From Brevundimonas terrae (GTDB taxonomy: Bacteria; Pseudomonadota; Alphaproteobacteria; Caulobacterales; Caulobacteraceae), in contig NZ_JAASQT010000002.1 of assembly GCF_011761985.1 (NCBI RefSeq), positions 248,001-312,000 of the forward strand: a DNA stretch of 64,000 nucleotides. Direction: 5' to 3'. Of this stretch, positions 15,795-35,856 are shown one piece after another. A program made the position numbers and the translations under genes. Each line of letters begins with the position of its first letter. The first letter of the stretch is position 1. The notes under the pieces are model-generated. The model did not search any database, was not told the DNA's origin, and saw only the letters and a program-made list of their open reading frames with translations.

Positions 15795-15827
15795 GGTTGT
15801 GGCAAGGCTTGAGGCTTTGTCACAACC
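15795..15827 (+). promoter_or_regulatory. hairpin between phoB and the small secreted protein gene
   Basis: A 14-bp stem (15795-15808 with 15814-15827; two positions would be G-U in RNA) closes on the loop TTGAG. No T-run follows, and it ends 15 bases before the next ATG. It may be a leader element or a poor terminator for phoB. Confidence 0.5.
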
Positions 15828-15842
15828 CTTCAGGGCAATCCA

Positions 15843-16211
15843 ATGCAACGCATCGGTTCGTATCTGGTTTTGGCGTCCATTCTGGTGACCCTGAGCGGTA
15901 CGCCAGCCATGGCACAATCTGTACGGCAGTTTCTGACCTCGGCAGACCGTATTCCGCGCAATGCAACGGCCTTGCTGATGCCATCTGCCCGACGGCTGAT
16001 GAACGAGTTGGGGGAAGCCTTCTCGACCGTGCGTTCCGAACAGGAGGCGCTACAGGCGAGGGGACAACCGCGCACCATCTGTATGCCGGAAAAGGTTACG
16101 CTGAACGCGCTGGAAATCGAAAGCCGGTTTCGTTCTATCCCCGAAGCCCGTCGCAATATCACGGTGACACAGGCCGTCCGTGAATGGATGGCCGAGAAAC
16201 ACCCCTGCTAG
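15843..16211 (+). CDS. small secreted protein, Rap1a/Tai-like
   Basis: A 122-residue protein with a signal peptide cut after PAMA (about residue 24). The mature part is helical and holds two cysteines, in TICMPEKVTLNALEIESRF and at the extreme C-terminus (MAEKHPC). A Cys-x-P motif, a helical middle and a terminal PC are the pattern of Rap1a/Tai proteins, known as periplasmic immunity proteins to type VI amidases and also found as orphans. No effector or secretion gene is nearby, so immunity is not supported. The family call is tentative. It lies 77 bases after phoB and ends at a two-way terminator. Confidence 0.55.
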   Translation: MQRIGSYLVLASILVTLSGTPAMAQSVRQFLTSADRIPRNATALLMPSARRLMNELGEAFSTVRSEQEALQARGQPRTICMPEKVTLNALEIESRFRSIPEARRNITVTQAVREWMAEKHPC

Positions 16212-28432: not shown

Positions 28433-28447
28433 CTGAATTATATTCAG
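28433..28447. promoter_or_regulatory. 6-3-6 palindrome, possible operator
   Basis: CTGAAT-TAT-ATTCAG is a perfect dyad about 130 bases before the amidohydrolase start. The binding protein is unknown; the Lrp-type regulator at the end of the locus is one candidate. Confidence 0.35.
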
Positions 28448-28503
28448 TAACGAGCGTAATATCCGAAGCCCTTACCGACACGGCGATGCTACCGATTTGA
28501 TAT

Positions 28504-28543
28504 GGGAACAGTGTTCTGGCTTGAGGGAGCCGGAGCTGTTCCC
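28504..28543 (+). promoter_or_regulatory. leader hairpin with TGAGGG loop (amidohydrolase)
   Basis: The arm 28504-28521 (gggaacag, a TG bulge, ttctggct) pairs with 28528-28543 (agccggag, ctgttccc): 16 pairs including two G-U, closing on the loop TGAGGG (28522-28527). No T-run follows. It ends 32 bases before the amidohydrolase ATG, so it lies in the mRNA leader. Confidence 0.65.
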
Positions 28544-28575
28544 GAGAGACTGGGTCTGCGTTGAGGGGGAAGTGG

Positions 28576-30246
28576 ATGGCGGCAAATATTGGCCGACGTG
28601 TAGGGGCGAGATTCTGGTCCGGTGTGTGTGCTGCGGTGATCGTGGCTGCGGCATCGCTGGCCGGAGGACAGGTCGCATTGGCGCATCAGGGCAGTGATGC
28701 GCCAGCGGCACGCCAGACCTATATTCCTGCACCTGCAAGACGGGCAGGCGAGGGCTATGGCCCGTATCCGCTCATGGTTATTCGTGGCGTGACCCTTATC
28801 GACGGTACGGGGGCACCGCCCACCGGCCCGGTTGATATCGTGATCGAGAACGACCGTATTACCGACATTGTGCAAGCCGGTTGGCCGGGTATGCCCGAGC
28901 GCCTGAACAGGCCGCCGCATGGTGCTGTCCACGAAATCGACGCCCGTGGCATGTATGTGATGCCGGGCTTTGTGGACGCCCACGTTCATGCCGGCGGTCC
29001 GGGCAAGGCTCCTGAAATGGAGTATGCCTACAAGCTGTGGCTGGCCCATGGTGTTACGACGGTGCGCGGTGTCAGTCTGGCCCCGCACGCCATTGCCCGC
29101 TCGGAACGTGACCGTTCGGCGCGTGGCGAGATCGTGGCCCCGCGTATCTATAATTATCAAACCATGGGTTCGGGCTGGAACCGTGGACGCATCCACGATG
29201 CTGCCAAGGCGCGTGAGTGGGTGCGCTGGGGTGCGGCCAACGGTATCGACGGCATCAAGTTCTTCATCCGTGGCGACGAGACACCGGAAACAGTGCTGGC
29301 GGCCATCGACGAGGCCAACAAGCTGGGCATGGGCACGGTCGCGCACATTGCCCAACCGGGTGTGGCGCAACTGAATGCCGAGCAACTGGCCGAGGCGGGA
29401 CTGGGCACCATCACCCACTTCTACGGCCATTTTGAATCGCTGCTGGCCGGTCGTGAAATCCAGAACTATCCGGTCGATTACAACTTCCTCGACGAGCAGA
29501 AACGCTTTGGCGAGGCCGCCGAAATCTGGCGTCAGGTTGATGTCGGTATGCCGGGCTGGGACGAGTACCTGAAGACGCAGGTCGAGACGGGCGTGGCCTT
29601 TGACCCGACCATGACCATCTATGCCGCGTCTCGTGATCTGATGCGGGCGCGCAATGCGCCGTGGCACGATATCTATACGCTGCCGACGCTGAAGGACTAT
29701 TTCCAGTCCACGCGCGACAATCACGGCAGCTATTTCTTCGACTGGACGACCCAGAACGAAGTGTCATGGCGCCGGTTCTATGACCGCTTCATGCATCTGG
29801 TGAACGATTACAAACGCGCCGGTGGCCGCGTGACGATCGGTTCGGATTCCGGCTTCATCTGGAAACTGTTCGGCTTTGGCTACATCGAGGAGATGGAGCT
29901 GTTGCAGGAAGCCGGCTTCCATCCGCTGGAGGTCGTGCGTGCGGCCACGATGGATGGCGCATCGGTACTGGCCGAGCCTTCGGGCAAGCCTGCCGACTTC
30001 GGTATCGTCCGCATCGGCATGAGCGCCGATCTGGTGATCGTGCCGGAAAACCCGCTGGCGAACTTCAAGACGCTTTACGGCACCGGCCACGAGCGCCTTA
30101 GCCCCGAAAACCGCATCGAGAAGGTTGGCGGGGTCAAATGGACCATCACACGCGGCGTTGCCTATGACGCCGAGGCACTGCTGGCCGATGTGAAGGCCAT
30201 GGTGGACGAGCAAAAGACCGCACGCGGTCAGCCGGTCCAGCCATGA
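28576..30246 (+). CDS. exported amidohydrolase
   Basis: A 556-residue metal-dependent amidohydrolase with a signal peptide (hydrophobic stretch to about residue 36). The catalytic barrel has HVH at 136-138 (FVDAHVHAGG), a possible bridging lysine in GIDGIKFF, histidines in VAHIAQPG and THFYGHF, and the late aspartate in GSDSG. The fold is of the imidazolonepropionase/prolidase-like group, whose exported members often cleave peptides or N-acyl amino acids. ATG 28576 follows GAGGGGG. It precedes a TonB-dependent receptor and a secreted DUF885 peptidase on the same strand, so a periplasmic role on an imported substrate is likely. The substrate is unknown. Confidence 0.88.
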   Translation: MAANIGRRVGARFWSGVCAAVIVAAASLAGGQVALAHQGSDAPAARQTYIPAPARRAGEGYGPYPLMVIRGVTLIDGTGAPPTGPVDIVIENDRITDIVQAGWPGMPERLNRPPHGAVHEIDARGMYVMPGFVDAHVHAGGPGKAPEMEYAYKLWLAHGVTTVRGVSLAPHAIARSERDRSARGEIVAPRIYNYQTMGSGWNRGRIHDAAKAREWVRWGAANGIDGIKFFIRGDETPETVLAAIDEANKLGMGTVAHIAQPGVAQLNAEQLAEAGLGTITHFYGHFESLLAGREIQNYPVDYNFLDEQKRFGEAAEIWRQVDVGMPGWDEYLKTQVETGVAFDPTMTIYAASRDLMRARNAPWHDIYTLPTLKDYFQSTRDNHGSYFFDWTTQNEVSWRRFYDRFMHLVNDYKRAGGRVTIGSDSGFIWKLFGFGYIEEMELLQEAGFHPLEVVRAATMDGASVLAEPSGKPADFGIVRIGMSADLVIVPENPLANFKTLYGTGHERLSPENRIEKVGGVKWTITRGVAYDAEALLADVKAMVDEQKTARGQPVQP

Positions 30247-30321
30247 CCGTGAACTGAAGATCAAAGACTGAAACTGCGGGCGGTGAATAAAACGCTGCCC
30301 CGCAAAACCAACAAACCAATT

Positions 30322-30354
30322 CCTGCGACGCCTTTGAGGGAAGGCGATTGCAGG
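30322..30354 (+). promoter_or_regulatory. leader hairpin with TGAGGG loop (TonB receptor)
   Basis: CCTGC (30322-30326) pairs with GCAGG (30350-30354), and CGCCTT (30329-30334) with AAGGCG (30341-30346), around a small internal loop. The apical loop is TGAGGG (30335-30340), the same as in the amidohydrolase leader. It ends 40 bases before the receptor ATG and has no T-run. Confidence 0.6.
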
Positions 30355-30394
30355 TCTGCGCCCGCAAGGGAAGTCATAGCTAGGGGATGACGAA

Positions 30395-33361
30395 ATGAGA
30401 CGCTCCACTTACCTCAAGGCAGGGACAATCCTGGCCGGCGTAGCGACACTGGCTCTTGCCCCTGTGGCAACCGCACAGGATGTTGTTGAACAGGAAGAAG
30501 TCAGCTCGGTTAGCGACATCGTCGTCACCGGCTCGCGCATCCGCCGCCCGAACATCGAGGCCGCAACGCCTGTGGCCGTTGTGGATGCTGGCGAGATCGA
30601 GGCTATCGGCAGCACCAACCTGATTGACGTCATGGCACGCCAGCCATCGGCCGGTCTGGGCTCGTCGGCTTCCAGCACCACCAACTCGGTGAACGGTCAG
30701 GGTCTGGCCACGCTGAACCTGCGTAATCTGGGTTCCAGCCGTACTCTGGTTCTGGTCAATGGCCGCCGCCACGTTGCCGGTGCAGCCGGTACCAGCGCCG
30801 TGGACATCAACACCGTTTCCAAAACCACGATTGCCCGCGTTGATACGGTAACGGGCGGTTCGTCGGCAGTTTACGGCGCGGACGCCGTGGCCGGTGTGGT
30901 GAACTTCATCACCAAGCAGGACTTTGACGGCATCACCTTCCAGACCCAGTACGGTTCGGCAGATGGTCCGCAGACCTATTACGGTTCGGTCGCTATGGGC
31001 CGTAACTTCAATGATGACCGCACCAACATCATGGGCGCGTTCACCTATGACAAGTCCGAAGGCATGCTGCGCCACGAGCGCGACTATGCCATGAGCTCGC
31101 TGGCGGAAATCCCGAACCCGGACAAGAAGAGCGCCAATGACGGCCTGCCGTCGTTCATCATGGCGCGTGACGTCTATACCAACACCCAGAACGACTTCTT
31201 TACGCCGGTTATTGTCACGCAGGTCGGTGCGGCCAAACCGTTCAGCCTGACCTTCACACCGGATGGCAAGCTGACCACGTTTGACCGTGGCCAGATCCTG
31301 TATGACGGTCAGGGCCGTGAACAGAAGCTGTCCATCGGTGGTGACGGCTTCAAGCTGCGCGACGACATGCTGCGCACGCCGGTCGAGCGTTTCGGCGGCG
31401 AGATGCAACTGCGTCACCAGTTCAACACCTCGGGTAATGTGTTCAGCTCGCTGAACCTGTTTGCCGAAGCCAAATACTTCCACATGGAAGCCAGCAGCCA
31501 GGCGCGTAACGGTACGTTTGCCGATACGTCTCCGGGCCGTTCGACGGGTAACGCCTATCGCATCTATGCCGACAATGCCTTCATATCGCCGGAGTTGCGG
31601 GCGGTGATGGCGGGCGGCGCTCTTCCGATTGATGACAAAGATCCTCTGAAGCGCCAGTATTTCGACATCAGCCGTATCGATACCGACTTCGGTATCCGTA
31701 CGACCACGTCGGAATACGACACCCTGCGCTTCGTCACCGGCTTTGACGGTTCGTTCAACAATGGCTGGAATTTCGAAGCCTATGTGAACTATGGCGAAAC
31801 GAAATCGCAGTTCGTGAACTTCGACCGTCTGCAAAAAGAGTTCTATGACTCGATCGATGCCGTCTCCGAAAACGGCCAGATCGTTTGTCGTGATCTGGCA
31901 GCACGCGCCAATGGCTGTCAGCCGCTGAACCTGTTCGGTGCCGGTCTGGCTTCGCAGGAAGCGCTGGACTACTCCTACATCTACACCGTTCGTGACGATG
32001 TGATCCGTCAGTGGAACGCGGTGGCCAGCGTCAACGGCGAGCTGTTCAGCTTCCCGTCGCTGTTCAGCGGTACGGCCCTGCCGGTTGCCTTCGCGGCAGG
32101 TGTGGAATGGCGTAAAGAATACAGCCAGATGGTGCCGGACATCCGTTCGCAGCAGGGGCTGATCTTCCAGAACGTACAGGCCCGCACCGAGGGCGAGTAC
32201 CAGTCCAAGGAAGTCTTCGTCGAAGTGAACCTGCCGCTGCTGGCTGATGTTCCCTTCGCCCAGTACGTCAACCTGAACGGTGCCTATCGCTATCAGGACT
32301 ACAGCACCACGGGCGGTGACGGCAGCTTCGGTCTGGGTCTGGAATGGACTGTTGATCGCAACATCCGTTTCCGCGGTAACTATGCCAAGGCTGTTCGTGC
32401 GCCGAACATTGGCGAACTGTTCAATGGTGGCAGCGAAGGCTATGCCGACTTTGCCGATCCGTGTGATGCAACGCGCCTGAACGTCGGCAAATATCCGGCC
32501 AACCGTGCCAAGAACTGTGCGGCGCTGGGTCTGGACCCGAACTTCACCCAGTCGGTCAGCACCAAGCCTTCGGTCAGCAAGGGTAACGAAAACCTGTCGC
32601 CGGAAGAGGGTGAAACCCTGACACTGGGCGTGGTCCTGACCCCGTCCTTCATTCCGGGTCTGGCGGTCACGGTTGACCACTATGACATCGCCATCAGCGA
32701 CGTTATCGCCTCGTTCGGCGCTCGCACCATCATCGACAACTGCGTGGACAGCCCGACGCTGGACAACCCGTTCTGCGGCAATGTCACCCGTGGCCCGGAT
32801 GGCAACATCGCCCGCGTCGTCAATCAGGTGATGAACGTGGCCGAATATACCAGCTCGGGCTGGGACGTGACCGCGTCCTACCGCACCGATCTGGCCTCGC
32901 TGGGTCTGCCGGATTACGGCTCGCTGTCCTTCAGCGCGGCTGCGGGCTTCCTCGACGAACTGACCTATGATCCGGTTCCGGGCGATGCCAGCGTGCGCGA
33001 CGAACAAGCAGGCGAAGCGCCCAATCCCAAGCGCCGCGTCAACTTCCGCATGACGTGGGACTATGACAACCTGTCGCTGTCCTACTCGAACCGTTATCTG
33101 AGCAGCGTGGTGCGTTCCAATCAGGATGCACCGGGTACCTACGAGGTCTGGAAGGCTCCGTCGTGGACCACGCATGACATCCGGGCGGAATACACCTTCG
33201 GCAACTACTCGGTCTTTGGCGGTATCAACAACTTCACCGACGAAGCCCCGCCGCAGACCCCGTTCACCTGGACGGGTACGTCGCTCTACAACGGCTTCAA
33301 TGCCAGCATTTACGACAACCTTGGTCGTTACATGTATGTGGGCGTGAACGCTCGCTTCTAA
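30395..33361 (+). CDS. TonB-dependent receptor
   Basis: A 988-residue outer-membrane receptor. A signal peptide ends near VATA (about 27). An Asp/Glu-rich stretch leads to DIVVTGSRIRRPN, the usual start of the plug domain, which runs to about residue 175 (NTVSKTTIARVDTVTGGSSAVYGADAVAGVVNFITK). The rest is a large barrel with two cysteine-bearing extracellular loops (CRDLAARANGCQPLN, and CDATRLNVG) and ends in YVGVNARF. This subclass in Caulobacterales and sphingomonads takes up peptides, sugars or other organics rather than only iron. Flanking hydrolases favour a peptide-like ligand. The start at 30395 has GGGG eight to nine bases upstream. Confidence 0.95.
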   Translation: MRRSTYLKAGTILAGVATLALAPVATAQDVVEQEEVSSVSDIVVTGSRIRRPNIEAATPVAVVDAGEIEAIGSTNLIDVMARQPSAGLGSSASSTTNSVNGQGLATLNLRNLGSSRTLVLVNGRRHVAGAAGTSAVDINTVSKTTIARVDTVTGGSSAVYGADAVAGVVNFITKQDFDGITFQTQYGSADGPQTYYGSVAMGRNFNDDRTNIMGAFTYDKSEGMLRHERDYAMSSLAEIPNPDKKSANDGLPSFIMARDVYTNTQNDFFTPVIVTQVGAAKPFSLTFTPDGKLTTFDRGQILYDGQGREQKLSIGGDGFKLRDDMLRTPVERFGGEMQLRHQFNTSGNVFSSLNLFAEAKYFHMEASSQARNGTFADTSPGRSTGNAYRIYADNAFISPELRAVMAGGALPIDDKDPLKRQYFDISRIDTDFGIRTTTSEYDTLRFVTGFDGSFNNGWNFEAYVNYGETKSQFVNFDRLQKEFYDSIDAVSENGQIVCRDLAARANGCQPLNLFGAGLASQEALDYSYIYTVRDDVIRQWNAVASVNGELFSFPSLFSGTALPVAFAAGVEWRKEYSQMVPDIRSQQGLIFQNVQARTEGEYQSKEVFVEVNLPLLADVPFAQYVNLNGAYRYQDYSTTGGDGSFGLGLEWTVDRNIRFRGNYAKAVRAPNIGELFNGGSEGYADFADPCDATRLNVGKYPANRAKNCAALGLDPNFTQSVSTKPSVSKGNENLSPEEGETLTLGVVLTPSFIPGLAVTVDHYDIAISDVIASFGARTIIDNCVDSPTLDNPFCGNVTRGPDGNIARVVNQVMNVAEYTSSGWDVTASYRTDLASLGLPDYGSLSFSAAAGFLDELTYDPVPGDASVRDEQAGEAPNPKRRVNFRMTWDYDNLSLSYSNRYLSSVVRSNQDAPGTYEVWKAPSWTTHDIRAEYTFGNYSVFGGINNFTDEAPPQTPFTWTGTSLYNGFNASIYDNLGRYMYVGVNARF

Positions 33362-33371
33362 GCAAAATGGT

Positions 33372-33400
33372 TGAAGCCGTCCGGTCGCCGGACGGCTTCA
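33372..33400 (+). terminator. hairpin after the receptor gene, weak terminator
   Basis: A perfect 13-bp stem (33372-33384 with 33388-33400) and three-base loop. The following bases are only partly T-rich, so it may trim the receptor message or let some transcription continue into the peptidase gene. Confidence 0.65.
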
Positions 33401-33409
33401 TTACCTTTG

Positions 33410-33434
33410 GGGGCCAGCCCGAGGGAGCGGCCCC
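33410..33434 (+). promoter_or_regulatory. leader hairpin with GAGGG loop (DUF885 peptidase)
   Basis: GGGGCC (33410-33415) pairs with GGCCCC (33429-33434), with two further pairs inside a bulged A. The loop CCGAGGGA (33419-33426) presents GAGGG, as in the two hairpins upstream. It ends 21 bases before the ATG. Confidence 0.5.
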
Positions 33435-33455
33435 GAGATTTCCTGAGGGGAAAAG

Positions 33456-35234
33456 ATGAAAACGCTGATCGCGCATAGCGCCATCGCCGCCGCCATGGGC
33501 ATCATGGCCGCCGGATCGACGCTGGCTATACCCGCAGCAGCACAGGCTCAGGCACCCGCTGTCGCTAACAATACTGTTGCACCGCCTCTGACCGCACTGG
33601 ACGCACAGTTCCGCGCTATCGCCGATGAAGAATGGGCATGGCGCAGTCAGGAAATGCCGAGCCGTGGTTCGGCTCGCTTTCCAGACGTCAGTGCTGAAGG
33701 ACAAGCGCGTCGACTGGCCTATTGGCTGAACGTGCAGCAGCGTCTGAACGCTATTTCGCTGAATGACCTGTCGCCTCAAGAGCGCACCAACTACTCAGTC
33801 TACAAGCACCAGATCGACAGCTTCGTTGAGGACATCCAGTTCGGCCTATACGAAATGCCGTTCACTGCCGACAGTTCGTTCTGGTCGGGCGTTTCGGGCA
33901 TGGCCAACGGCACCTTCTCTTCGGTTGCCGACTACGAGCGCTACCTGGATCGCCTGCGCGCCGCGCCGGCTCATTTCGATCAGCAGATCGTCAATATGCG
34001 CGCCGGTATCGCCCGTGGCTTTGTGCAGCCACGCGAAGCTCTGTCTGGCCGCGATATTTCGATCTCGACCATCAGCGAGGCGACCAATCCAGTCGAGAAC
34101 CAGCTCTATGGTCCGTTCAAGTTTATGTCGGGAATTTCCGAAGCCGACCAGCAGCGCCTGCGCGCTGAAGCTGTTCAGGTTATCGGCCAGATCGCTGTTC
34201 CAGCCTTCCAGAACCTGCTGACCTTTTATCGCGGTGAATATCTGCCCGCCACGCGCGCGACGCTGGGTGCTGACAAGTTACCAAACGGCGAGGCCTTCTA
34301 CCAAAGCCAGATCCGCCAATACACAAGCATCGACATGACTCCGGACGAGATCCACCAGATCGGTCTGGCCGAGGTCGCCCGCCTTCGCGCGGAAATGGAA
34401 ACCGTGATGCGCTCGACCGGCTGGACCGGCACGTTCAACGAGTTCACCCGCTTCCTGAAGACCGACAAACAATTCACCTATGACGAGCCCGAGCACCTGC
34501 TGTGGCACGCGGCATGGGTGGTGAAGAAGGTCGACGGCAAGATGGCTCAGTATTTCGAGCTGCAACCGCGCCAGACCTTCGACGTGTCGGAAATCCCGGC
34601 CAACATCGCGCCCTTCTATACGGCTGGCCGCGGCAACTGTTCGTTCAATACCTATGACCTGCCGTCGCGCCCGCGTTACAATATTCCGGCCCTGACCGTA
34701 CACGAGTGCAACCCGGGCCACGCCTGGCATGGCAAGATGCGTAGCGAACTGCCAGCCCTTCCGGCATGGCGTCTGGGAGCCAACATCTCGGCCTTCGGTG
34801 AGGGCTGGGGCCTGTACACCGAGAAACTTGGTGTTGAAATGGGCGTTTATGAAAACGCCTATGAGGACTTCGGGCGTCTGAATTACGAGATGTGGCGTGC
34901 GGCTCGTCTGGTGATTGATACCGGCCTTCACTCCAAGGGGTGGTCCCGTGATCAGGCTCTGGCCTATCTGACGAATAATACAGCGTTGTCGGACCATGAA
35001 ATCCGCACCGAAATCGATCGCTACATCACATGGCCGGGGCAGGCTCTGGCCTATAAGCTGGGGCAGATCGAGATTATCCGTCTGCGGGCTAAGGCTGAGG
35101 CTGAGCTGGGTTCCGACTTCGATATCCGTAAGTTCCACGACAAGCTTATCGGCCTGATCGTGGCAACCATTCCGGCCATGACCGCCGAGATGGAAGCCTT
35201 CATCACAGAACAGAAGGCCAATACGGCCCCTTAG
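33456..35234 (+). CDS. secreted DUF885-family metallopeptidase
   Basis: A 592-residue DUF885 protein with a signal peptide (to about residue 31). The zinc motif is HECNPGH at 416-422, a variant of the family HE-x3-GH, and a downstream glutamate lies at 449 in EGWGLYTEKL. These features fit gluzincin-like peptidases thought to act on short peptides. It should work in the periplasm on material brought in by the neighbouring receptor. TGAGGGGAAAAG immediately before the ATG is the ribosome site. A terminator hairpin follows at 35249. Confidence 0.9.
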   Translation: MKTLIAHSAIAAAMGIMAAGSTLAIPAAAQAQAPAVANNTVAPPLTALDAQFRAIADEEWAWRSQEMPSRGSARFPDVSAEGQARRLAYWLNVQQRLNAISLNDLSPQERTNYSVYKHQIDSFVEDIQFGLYEMPFTADSSFWSGVSGMANGTFSSVADYERYLDRLRAAPAHFDQQIVNMRAGIARGFVQPREALSGRDISISTISEATNPVENQLYGPFKFMSGISEADQQRLRAEAVQVIGQIAVPAFQNLLTFYRGEYLPATRATLGADKLPNGEAFYQSQIRQYTSIDMTPDEIHQIGLAEVARLRAEMETVMRSTGWTGTFNEFTRFLKTDKQFTYDEPEHLLWHAAWVVKKVDGKMAQYFELQPRQTFDVSEIPANIAPFYTAGRGNCSFNTYDLPSRPRYNIPALTVHECNPGHAWHGKMRSELPALPAWRLGANISAFGEGWGLYTEKLGVEMGVYENAYEDFGRLNYEMWRAARLVIDTGLHSKGWSRDQALAYLTNNTALSDHEIRTEIDRYITWPGQALAYKLGQIEIIRLRAKAEAELGSDFDIRKFHDKLIGLIVATIPAMTAEMEAFITEQKANTAP

Positions 35235-35382: not shown

Positions 35383-35856
35383 ATGAGCTCGAATGATTAT
35401 AAGCTCGATGAGGCAGACCGCCGTATTTTACGCGCGTTGCAGCAGGATGGACGTATAACGAACCAGGATTTGGCGGCGGCATGCAATATGTCGGCGTCTT
35501 CGTGTTTCGAGCGTGTGCGCCGTCTGCGCGAGCGCGGGGTGATCATGGGTTATACGGCCCTGATCAATCCAAAATATGCCGAGCGCGAATTACTGGTTTT
35601 TGTCGAGATTATGCTGGATCGCACGACCTCCGACATTTTCGACCAGTTTGCGGCCCGTATCCGTCGTTCTCCCGAGGTTCTGGAGTGCCACATGGTGGCC
35701 GGCGGCTTTGACTATCTGGTCAAGGTCCGCATGAAGGACATGGCGGCCTATCGTGCCTTCTTGGCTGACACGCTGGTGGTCATGCCAGGGGTGCGCGAAA
35801 CCCGTACCTATGCGGTGATGGAAGAGGTCAAGGATACATCGATCCTGCCGCTCTGA
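35383..35856 (+). CDS. Lrp/AsnC-family transcriptional regulator
   Basis: A 157-residue regulator. The helix-turn-helix is at about 8-65 (ADRRILRALQQDGRITNQDLAAACNMSASSCFERVRRLRERGVI), followed by an RAM/ligand domain (75-150) with the GGFDYLVKVRMKDMAAYRAF signature that binds amino acids. GGGGGGAG seven bases before the ATG marks the start. It is the last gene of a set encoding a receptor and two peptide-type hydrolases, so control of that set by an amino acid is a reasonable guess. The stop codon is copied in a 15-bp tandem repeat. Confidence 0.93.
   Translation: MSSNDYKLDEADRRILRALQQDGRITNQDLAAACNMSASSCFERVRRLRERGVIMGYTALINPKYAERELLVFVEIMLDRTTSDIFDQFAARIRRSPEVLECHMVAGGFDYLVKVRMKDMAAYRAFLADTLVVMPGVRETRTYAVMEEVKDTSILPL

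Follow-up and report, generated by a model that had tools for sequence, protein, structure and literature searches.

Do the stem-loops standing before three consecutive genes of one Brevundimonas locus carry a common regulatory signal, or does each leader have a structure of its own? The window, by which we mean the whole stretch of 64,000 nucleotides analysed here, is part of a 2.94 Mb Brevundimonas-type genome (Brevundimonas terrae) and contains, in succession, an amidohydrolase gene (ami), a TonB-dependent receptor gene and a DUF885 gene. A preliminary description of this DNA had noticed a hairpin with GAGGG in its loop before each of them and proposed that one small RNA (sRNA) or RNA-binding protein could recognize these loops and thereby co-regulate the locus. 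Judged from folds and orthologue comparison, the hairpins of ami and of the receptor gene are genuine, conserved and gene-specific, and one RNA switch common to the whole locus is unlikely. The genes and their leader hairpins are:

28576 to 30246, plus strand: ami, amidohydrolase gene (PF01979, E 9e-14)
28504 to 28543, plus strand: ami leader hairpin, TGAGGG at 28522-28527 (fold of -26.5 kcal/mol; orthologue comparison)
30395 to 33361, plus strand: TonB-dependent receptor gene (PF00593, PF07715)
30322 to 30354, plus strand: receptor leader hairpin, TGAGGG at 30335-30340 (-20.9 kcal/mol; hairpin in 11 of 11 genomes)
33456 to 35234, plus strand: DUF885 gene (PF05960, E 7.7e-138)
33406 to 33438, plus strand: leader hairpin of the DUF885 gene, in which GAGGG is partly paired and not conserved (fold and orthologue comparison)

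The same gene trio occurs in 10 further genomes of the genus, named Brevundimonas species among them (loci L014-L019, L040, L041, L117 and L118), and the operon proteins are 65.5-83.0% identical between the window and these relatives. The L017 sequence stops short of the ami leader, so that the ami comparison covers the window and nine relatives, and that of the receptor and DUF885 leaders all 11 genomes; for L117 the DUF885 start was extrapolated.

Folding returned the ami and the receptor stem-loops as stable structures exactly where the preliminary description had drawn them, the ami hairpin ending 32 and the receptor hairpin 40 bases 5' of the start codon. In both, the U and the G flanking the loop pair in the fold, which leaves GAGG within UGAGGG as the open loop. 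For ami, the leader folding z-score is -3.2, and the proposed check for covariation came out in favour of a conserved element: over seven genomes the loop letters are invariant and the stem covaries. TGAGGG lies between complementary arms in 7 of the 10 ami leaders (window, L014, L016, L018, L040, L117 and L118) and the best hairpin of the region has it as its loop in six of these seven, an overlapping fold being preferred in L018; it is lost in the other three (L015, L019 and L041), which the covariation count omits. Among the seven, 5 of 7 stem pairs are changed on both sides, a count equalled by none of 500 shuffles (a frequency that is not a true probability, since the sequences are related), and 87.8% of the alignment cells are paired. 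Shifting the partner by 1 to 3 columns left at most one pair changed on both sides. Conservation of the letters above a changing stem is what makes the ami loop stand out, and by this comparison the ami hairpin is a constrained RNA element, placed immediately 3' of a promoter-like block that is conserved as well. In another family of the order, the 180 bases preceding the ami orthologues (5 loci, 45-48% identity) lack GAGGG, the gene starts there being uncertain.

The ami leaders of the relatives also show features of their own. In nine of them (L014, L016, L018, L040, L015, L019, L041, L117 and L118) ami apparently begins with TTG after a GGGAGGG Shine-Dalgarno run, which in L015 and L019 can itself pair, and several have a second hairpin 3' of the first. 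The ami gene of the window starts with ATG and has neither the TTG and GGGAGGG run nor the second hairpin.

The receptor hairpin gave a divided answer on conservation: the structure is kept in all 11 genomes, but the 10 relatives have GGGGA at the end of the loop, where the window reads UGAGGGA, so that GGGA is invariant throughout and GAGGG is found in the loop of two genomes only, the window and L016. The z-score of this leader is -1.2, with 23 of 200 shuffles folding equally well. In a nine-sequence alignment including the window, 3 of 10 stem pairs are changed on both sides. For the 10 relatives, counted apart from the window because a bulge there shifts the register, the figure is 2 of 10, a count reached by 245 of 500 shuffles; their covariation score and paired cells were matched by 1 of 500. 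One alignment misplacing the window hairpin and one with a spurious minus-strand copy were kept out of the pair counts. Covariation in the receptor stem is modest.

The DUF885 leader does not belong with the other two. Its loop had been described as CCGAGGGA at 33419-33426; in the fold this stretch is not open, the terminal loop being GAG closed by CC/GG (the loop of L117 is also GAG). A hairpin is possible at the same place in most genomes, and the letters GAGGG occur in 4 of 11 (window, L041, L117 and L118), wholly inside the terminal loop in none of the 11. At 20 DUF885 loci outside Brevundimonas, no GAGGG-loop hairpin was found within 200 bases 5' of the match, whose beginning need not coincide with the gene start. 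The z-score of this leader is -4.1, over a stretch that includes a strong hairpin at 33372-33400. GAGGG in the DUF885 leader is a coincidence combined with an ordinary purine-rich Shine-Dalgarno sequence. A fourth hairpin, reported with the loop TTGAG before the gene at 15843, turned out to have the loop UGA and no GAGGG. The structures concerned are:

33372 to 33400, plus strand: terminator-like or 3'-end hairpin of the receptor gene (terminator scan; stem letters recur in aligned orthologues)
33439 to 33453, plus strand: small hairpin holding the DUF885 Shine-Dalgarno sequence GAGGGG (leader fold)
15795 to 15827, plus strand: fourth hairpin, 15-pair stem and a different loop, outside the element discussed here

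We therefore rejected a single GAGGG element common to the three genes, the DUF885 loop containing it in 0 of 11 genomes and the receptor loop reading GGGGA in 10 of 11. Since conservation of the GAGGG loop does not extend to all three genes, a common RNA switch is unlikely, and the proposal that the loops are a shared target of one sRNA or protein serving the locus did not hold: to these loop differences are added the absence of CsrA and the poor pairing predicted for the sRNA alphaR8, both described below. A loop word common to neighbouring leaders of one genome may thus fail to survive comparison with relatives.

What, then, could coordinate the locus? The region upstream of ami and the gene behind DUF885 offer a possible answer; these and the remaining features of the locus are:

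28434 to 28446, no strand assigned: palindrome TGAATTATATTCA, a perfect dyad in the window, putative Lrp/AsnC-type operator
28458 to 28467, plus strand: upstream element AATATCCGAA, identical in 10 of 10 ami upstream regions
28488 to 28495, plus strand: -10-like GCTACCGA (resemblance to the alphaproteobacterial consensus)
28563 to 28569, plus strand: Shine-Dalgarno sequence GAGGGGG of ami (sequence)
30275 to 30304, plus strand: additional hairpin in the spacer between ami and the receptor gene (-16.1 kcal/mol)
35383 to 35856, plus strand: Lrp/AsnC-family regulator gene (PF01037), adjoining the operon in the window and 10 relatives

The core AATTnTATT is present in all 10 ami upstream regions, preceded by G in nine and by A in L040, and GAATN3ATTC occurs 7 times in a 1.504 Mb sample, about half of the window's own genome. 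The -10-like site reads GCTAGCGA in 7 of 9 relatives and GGTAGCGA in the other two, and we take the GCTAGCGA-type block to resemble an alphaproteobacterial -10 element. It suggests a transcript start at about 28501-28504, which would make the ami hairpin the first structure of the primary transcript; the block ends 8 bases 5' of the hairpin in the window. Transcription starting downstream of the hairpins had been named as a finding that would speak against them, and the putative ami promoter lies upstream. The Lrp/AsnC gene stands 3' of the DUF885 gene in 10 of 10 relatives with 88.5-91.7% identity, above that of the operon proteins. The dyad and AATATCCGAA may be the operator of this regulator. 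The neighbouring gene and the conserved elements 5' of ami suggest that the operon serves peptide use and is controlled at transcription in response to amino acids; its ami product is probably secreted, to judge from the N-terminus.

We see about an even chance that two local cis-acting hairpins, those of ami and of the receptor gene, operate here in combination with transcriptional control of the operon. The receptor hairpin lies in the short spacer 3' of ami and 5' of the ribosome-binding site. Each hairpin would act in cis and on the cistron that it precedes: it would protect the 5' end, or a 5' end produced by processing in the intercistronic region, against ribonucleases and leave the ribosome-binding site accessible. 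The expression level of the receptor could thereby differ from that of ami. Co-regulation of the locus would be transcriptional, and we infer that the adjacent Lrp/AsnC regulator and the elements upstream of ami explain it more simply than a shared loop.

Several observations weigh against this combination of local hairpins and transcriptional control. A structural role by itself leaves unexplained why TGAGGG (ami, seven genomes) and GGGA (receptor, 11 genomes) are invariant over varying stems, and the three ami leaders without the loop letters indicate that the loop is dispensable there. A scan with the E. coli-type sigma-70 consensus returned no promoter upstream of ami, and the putative link to the Lrp regulator is drawn from gene adjacency and sequence. 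Finally, leaders hold 701 (3.4%) of the 20,338 six-base-loop hairpins in the 1.504 Mb (1,389 called genes), compared with 5 of the 8 whose loop is TGAGGG, the highest leader count among 3,652 loops, tied with GGAAAC. This enrichment is the best evidence for the co-regulation first proposed.

The same observations favour the explanation that the UGAGGG and GGGGA loops are recognition sites through which an RNA or protein acts in trans to co-regulate ami, the receptor gene and perhaps further genes: an invariant loop over a covarying stem in ami, GGGA in every receptor loop, and the excess of TGAGGG in leaders. We consider it unlikely, since in the relatives the ami and receptor loops differ from each other, no candidate partner was found among those examined (alphaR8 and CsrA), and two of the other leaders, those of the transporter and the peptidase, lack the letters in nearly all orthologues shown. 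The five leaders with a TGAGGG loop are those of ami, the receptor gene, an MFS transporter gene, a Met-zincin peptidase gene (DUF4953/DUF5117) and a response-regulator gene beside pleD, which we take to be divK-like, the family search naming PleD only. Outside the window's own genome, TGAGGG is kept in the transporter and peptidase leaders of genome G024, and in 0 of 18 further transporter and 0 of 8 further peptidase orthologues shown. When the two hairpins of this operon are set aside, 3 of 6 TGAGGG hairpins are in leaders. Contig C6, which holds two of the three outside leaders, was chosen since the ami model matched there, a choice that biases how many TGAGGG hairpins were counted, but has no direct bearing on where they lie with respect to genes; the starts of genes came from a simple in-house caller, that of ami being set by hand. 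A bolder version, in which the UGAGGG-loop hairpins close to the 5' side of ribosome-binding sites are, in this Brevundimonas lineage, docking sites of an undescribed RNA-binding protein or sRNA controlling the operon and the MFS transporter, Met-zincin peptidase and divK-like regulator genes, seems to us distinctly improbable.

Two of these outside leaders show further structure. The hairpin before the divK-like gene (own genome C3:296602, minus strand; L201:16602) has six perfect pairs and a TGAGGG loop, and the divergent gene on its far side is presumably DNA-polymerase-IV-like. The transporter leader (L168:17080-17228; own genome C6, before 37229) adopts a large multi-stem fold, the layout of which is similar in several orthologues of the genus with other loops; among the leaders shown, TGAGGG is present in the own genome and G024 only.

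Searches for a wider regulon were mostly negative. In 101 genomes of the genus, taken from a larger group by stricter filters, the receptor model gave 20 matches at E 0.01 or better, of which 11 are this operon; the ten strongest (E 4.2e-5 or better) are all from it, and the operon copy of G127 was reached only at E 0.004. The nine others (E 0.001-0.01) lie in no locus resembling the three proteins: by a simple coding score, three are within a gene on the same strand, three antisense and three outside called genes, one of these last directly preceding a doubtful start. The next match in the own genome has E 0.2. A receptor-wide regulon was rejected on these weak matches in unrelated-looking places. 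The ami model gave 33 further matches in G109 and G127, and the classifier took none of them for a leader; 11 contain TGAGGG and one abuts a gene start. This classifier is fallible, having put the genuine ami leader of the own genome under 'other' and G127:C1:843365 under 'sense'. In G043, 10 of 14 matches were inspected and, besides ami, only an intercistronic one precedes a start; in G024, 1 of 5 matches is a leader, that of the MFS transporter common with the own genome. For six other genomes the returned loci were inspected, partly by eye. A genus-wide regulon with the ami-type hairpin was thus not seen in the relatives examined, and a limited literature search found nothing relevant on Brevundimonas leaders. 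The G127:C1:843365 hairpin, with TGAGGG in its loop, covers the stop codon that immediately precedes the next gene start, and G043 and G031 have it at the same place.

Could the shared GAGGG be chance, given that GC-rich leaders often hold stable hairpins and purine runs mimic Shine-Dalgarno sequences? By a loose criterion, 464 of 738 called genes (784 kb) have a leader hairpin, and GAGGG is in the hairpin loop of 11 of the 738, the three of this locus included. The DUF885 match is a Shine-Dalgarno hairpin, as are several other GAGGG-loop leaders, and the intercistronic TGAGGG of G043, G127 and G031 (near position 1501 of L151, L157 and L163) consists of a TGA stop and a Shine-Dalgarno run. 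By the loose criterion, 1.5% of 522 other leaders have GAGGG in a hairpin loop; once the stem threshold is made stricter, ami and the receptor gene are all that is left of this locus, along with two leaders from other places, and no loop word is common to the triple any more. Chance is also a doubtful account: the ami loop is conserved over a covarying stem, and random triples drawn from the 522 leaders have any loop 5-mer in common at a rate of only 0.0010. Among real same-strand triples, 5 of 95 share a loop 5-mer, one of the five being this locus and the others a set of four overlapping triples at another place on contig C2; under the stricter stem threshold this locus leaves the set and two of the C2 triples remain. 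The C2 triples (about 419,200 to beyond 422,400; L056 and L057) share CAAAATG-like loop words and look like a repeated leader cassette.

The partners that might read the loops were sought directly. CsrA-regulated leaders were rejected, the genome giving 0 CsrA matches in a search that detects the family in 3 of 14 control genomes. A known Rfam leader or riboswitch element was likewise rejected: the window has no match at the gathering score, and at E up to 1, L001 gives no match and L040 a single one, below the threshold and at another place; RF02342 (ar7) also gave a sub-threshold match only. The obvious candidate was alphaR8 (mmgR/suhB, SisA-like), since AGGGA, complementary to part of its core UUUCCUCCCU, is in all three window hairpins (AGGGAG in two). 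The own genome has one match over the cut-off (RF00519, 60.4 bits against a gathering score of 41; 1 of 45 listed, the other 44 being weaker at E up to 1), an sRNA at L060:1450-1531 (C1:321800-321881, minus strand) with the exact core and a terminator. The only other exact copy of the core lies inside a coding frame, presumably that of CTP synthase. The sRNA gene adjoins an N-formylglutamate amidohydrolase (FGase) gene, and in Caulobacter, according to PMC12559287, SisA has the same placement and represses a target through pairing in its 5' leader. That the UUUCCUCCCU core targets the loops by pairing with AGGGA(G) is nevertheless very improbable, and we rejected it on poor pairing: in a duplex and accessibility calculation over 407 leaders (424 kb sample), ami ranks 398th, DUF885 113th and the receptor gene 33rd, and only the ami site covers the loop, at about 0 kcal/mol net, those of the receptor and DUF885 lying at the Shine-Dalgarno sequence. 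The calculation leaves aside kissing-loop contacts with the stem closed, so that it makes the alphaR8 idea less probable rather than refuting it. The suggested search for an sRNA acting on the loops thus brought up a real sRNA for which strong loop pairing is not predicted.

That the hairpins are attenuators or terminators of the preceding genes is scarcely credible. Two of them do stand in spacers behind another gene, but no T run follows the ami or the receptor hairpin, the terminator scan lists neither, and about 380 bases separate the ami hairpin, which follows the promoter-like block, from the end of the nearest called gene 5' of it.

Returning to the two local hairpins, the 5'-terminal hairpins of the E. 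coli ompA type stabilise bacterial mRNAs, and here too a stable stem-loop is found at or near the putative 5' end, 5' of the ribosome-binding site; in contrast, the loop letters are conserved here, which the ompA-type mechanism does not require, and the stabilising effect is putative. The target motif of CsrA/RsmA is ARGGA in a hairpin loop, a pattern that AGGGA fits, but in a genome without a CsrA match. Brevundimonas and Caulobacter are members of the same family. The likeness to SisA-D/alphaR8 and CrfA, as PMC12559287 describes them, lies in the genes concerned (receptor and nutrient genes), in purine-rich sites of the leader to which a CU-rich sRNA core is complementary, and in the presence of an alphaR8 gene, whereas the pairing predicted here is poor or outside the loops. 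The preliminary description had cited CrfA as activating receptor messages by pairing with their leaders; the same paper has it act only indirectly, as a sponge of alphaR8 sRNAs that counteracts SisA-D, without pairing to receptor leaders (PMC12559287). For ChvR and chvT of Caulobacter, PMC6237742 gives a TonB-receptor leader with two sRNA sites (-70 to -59 and -20 to -10), and reports ChvR as specific to C. crescentus. Beside these systems, the invariant six-base loop over a covarying stem, at what would be the start of the operon transcript, is a small and testable candidate cis-element in a relative of Caulobacter.

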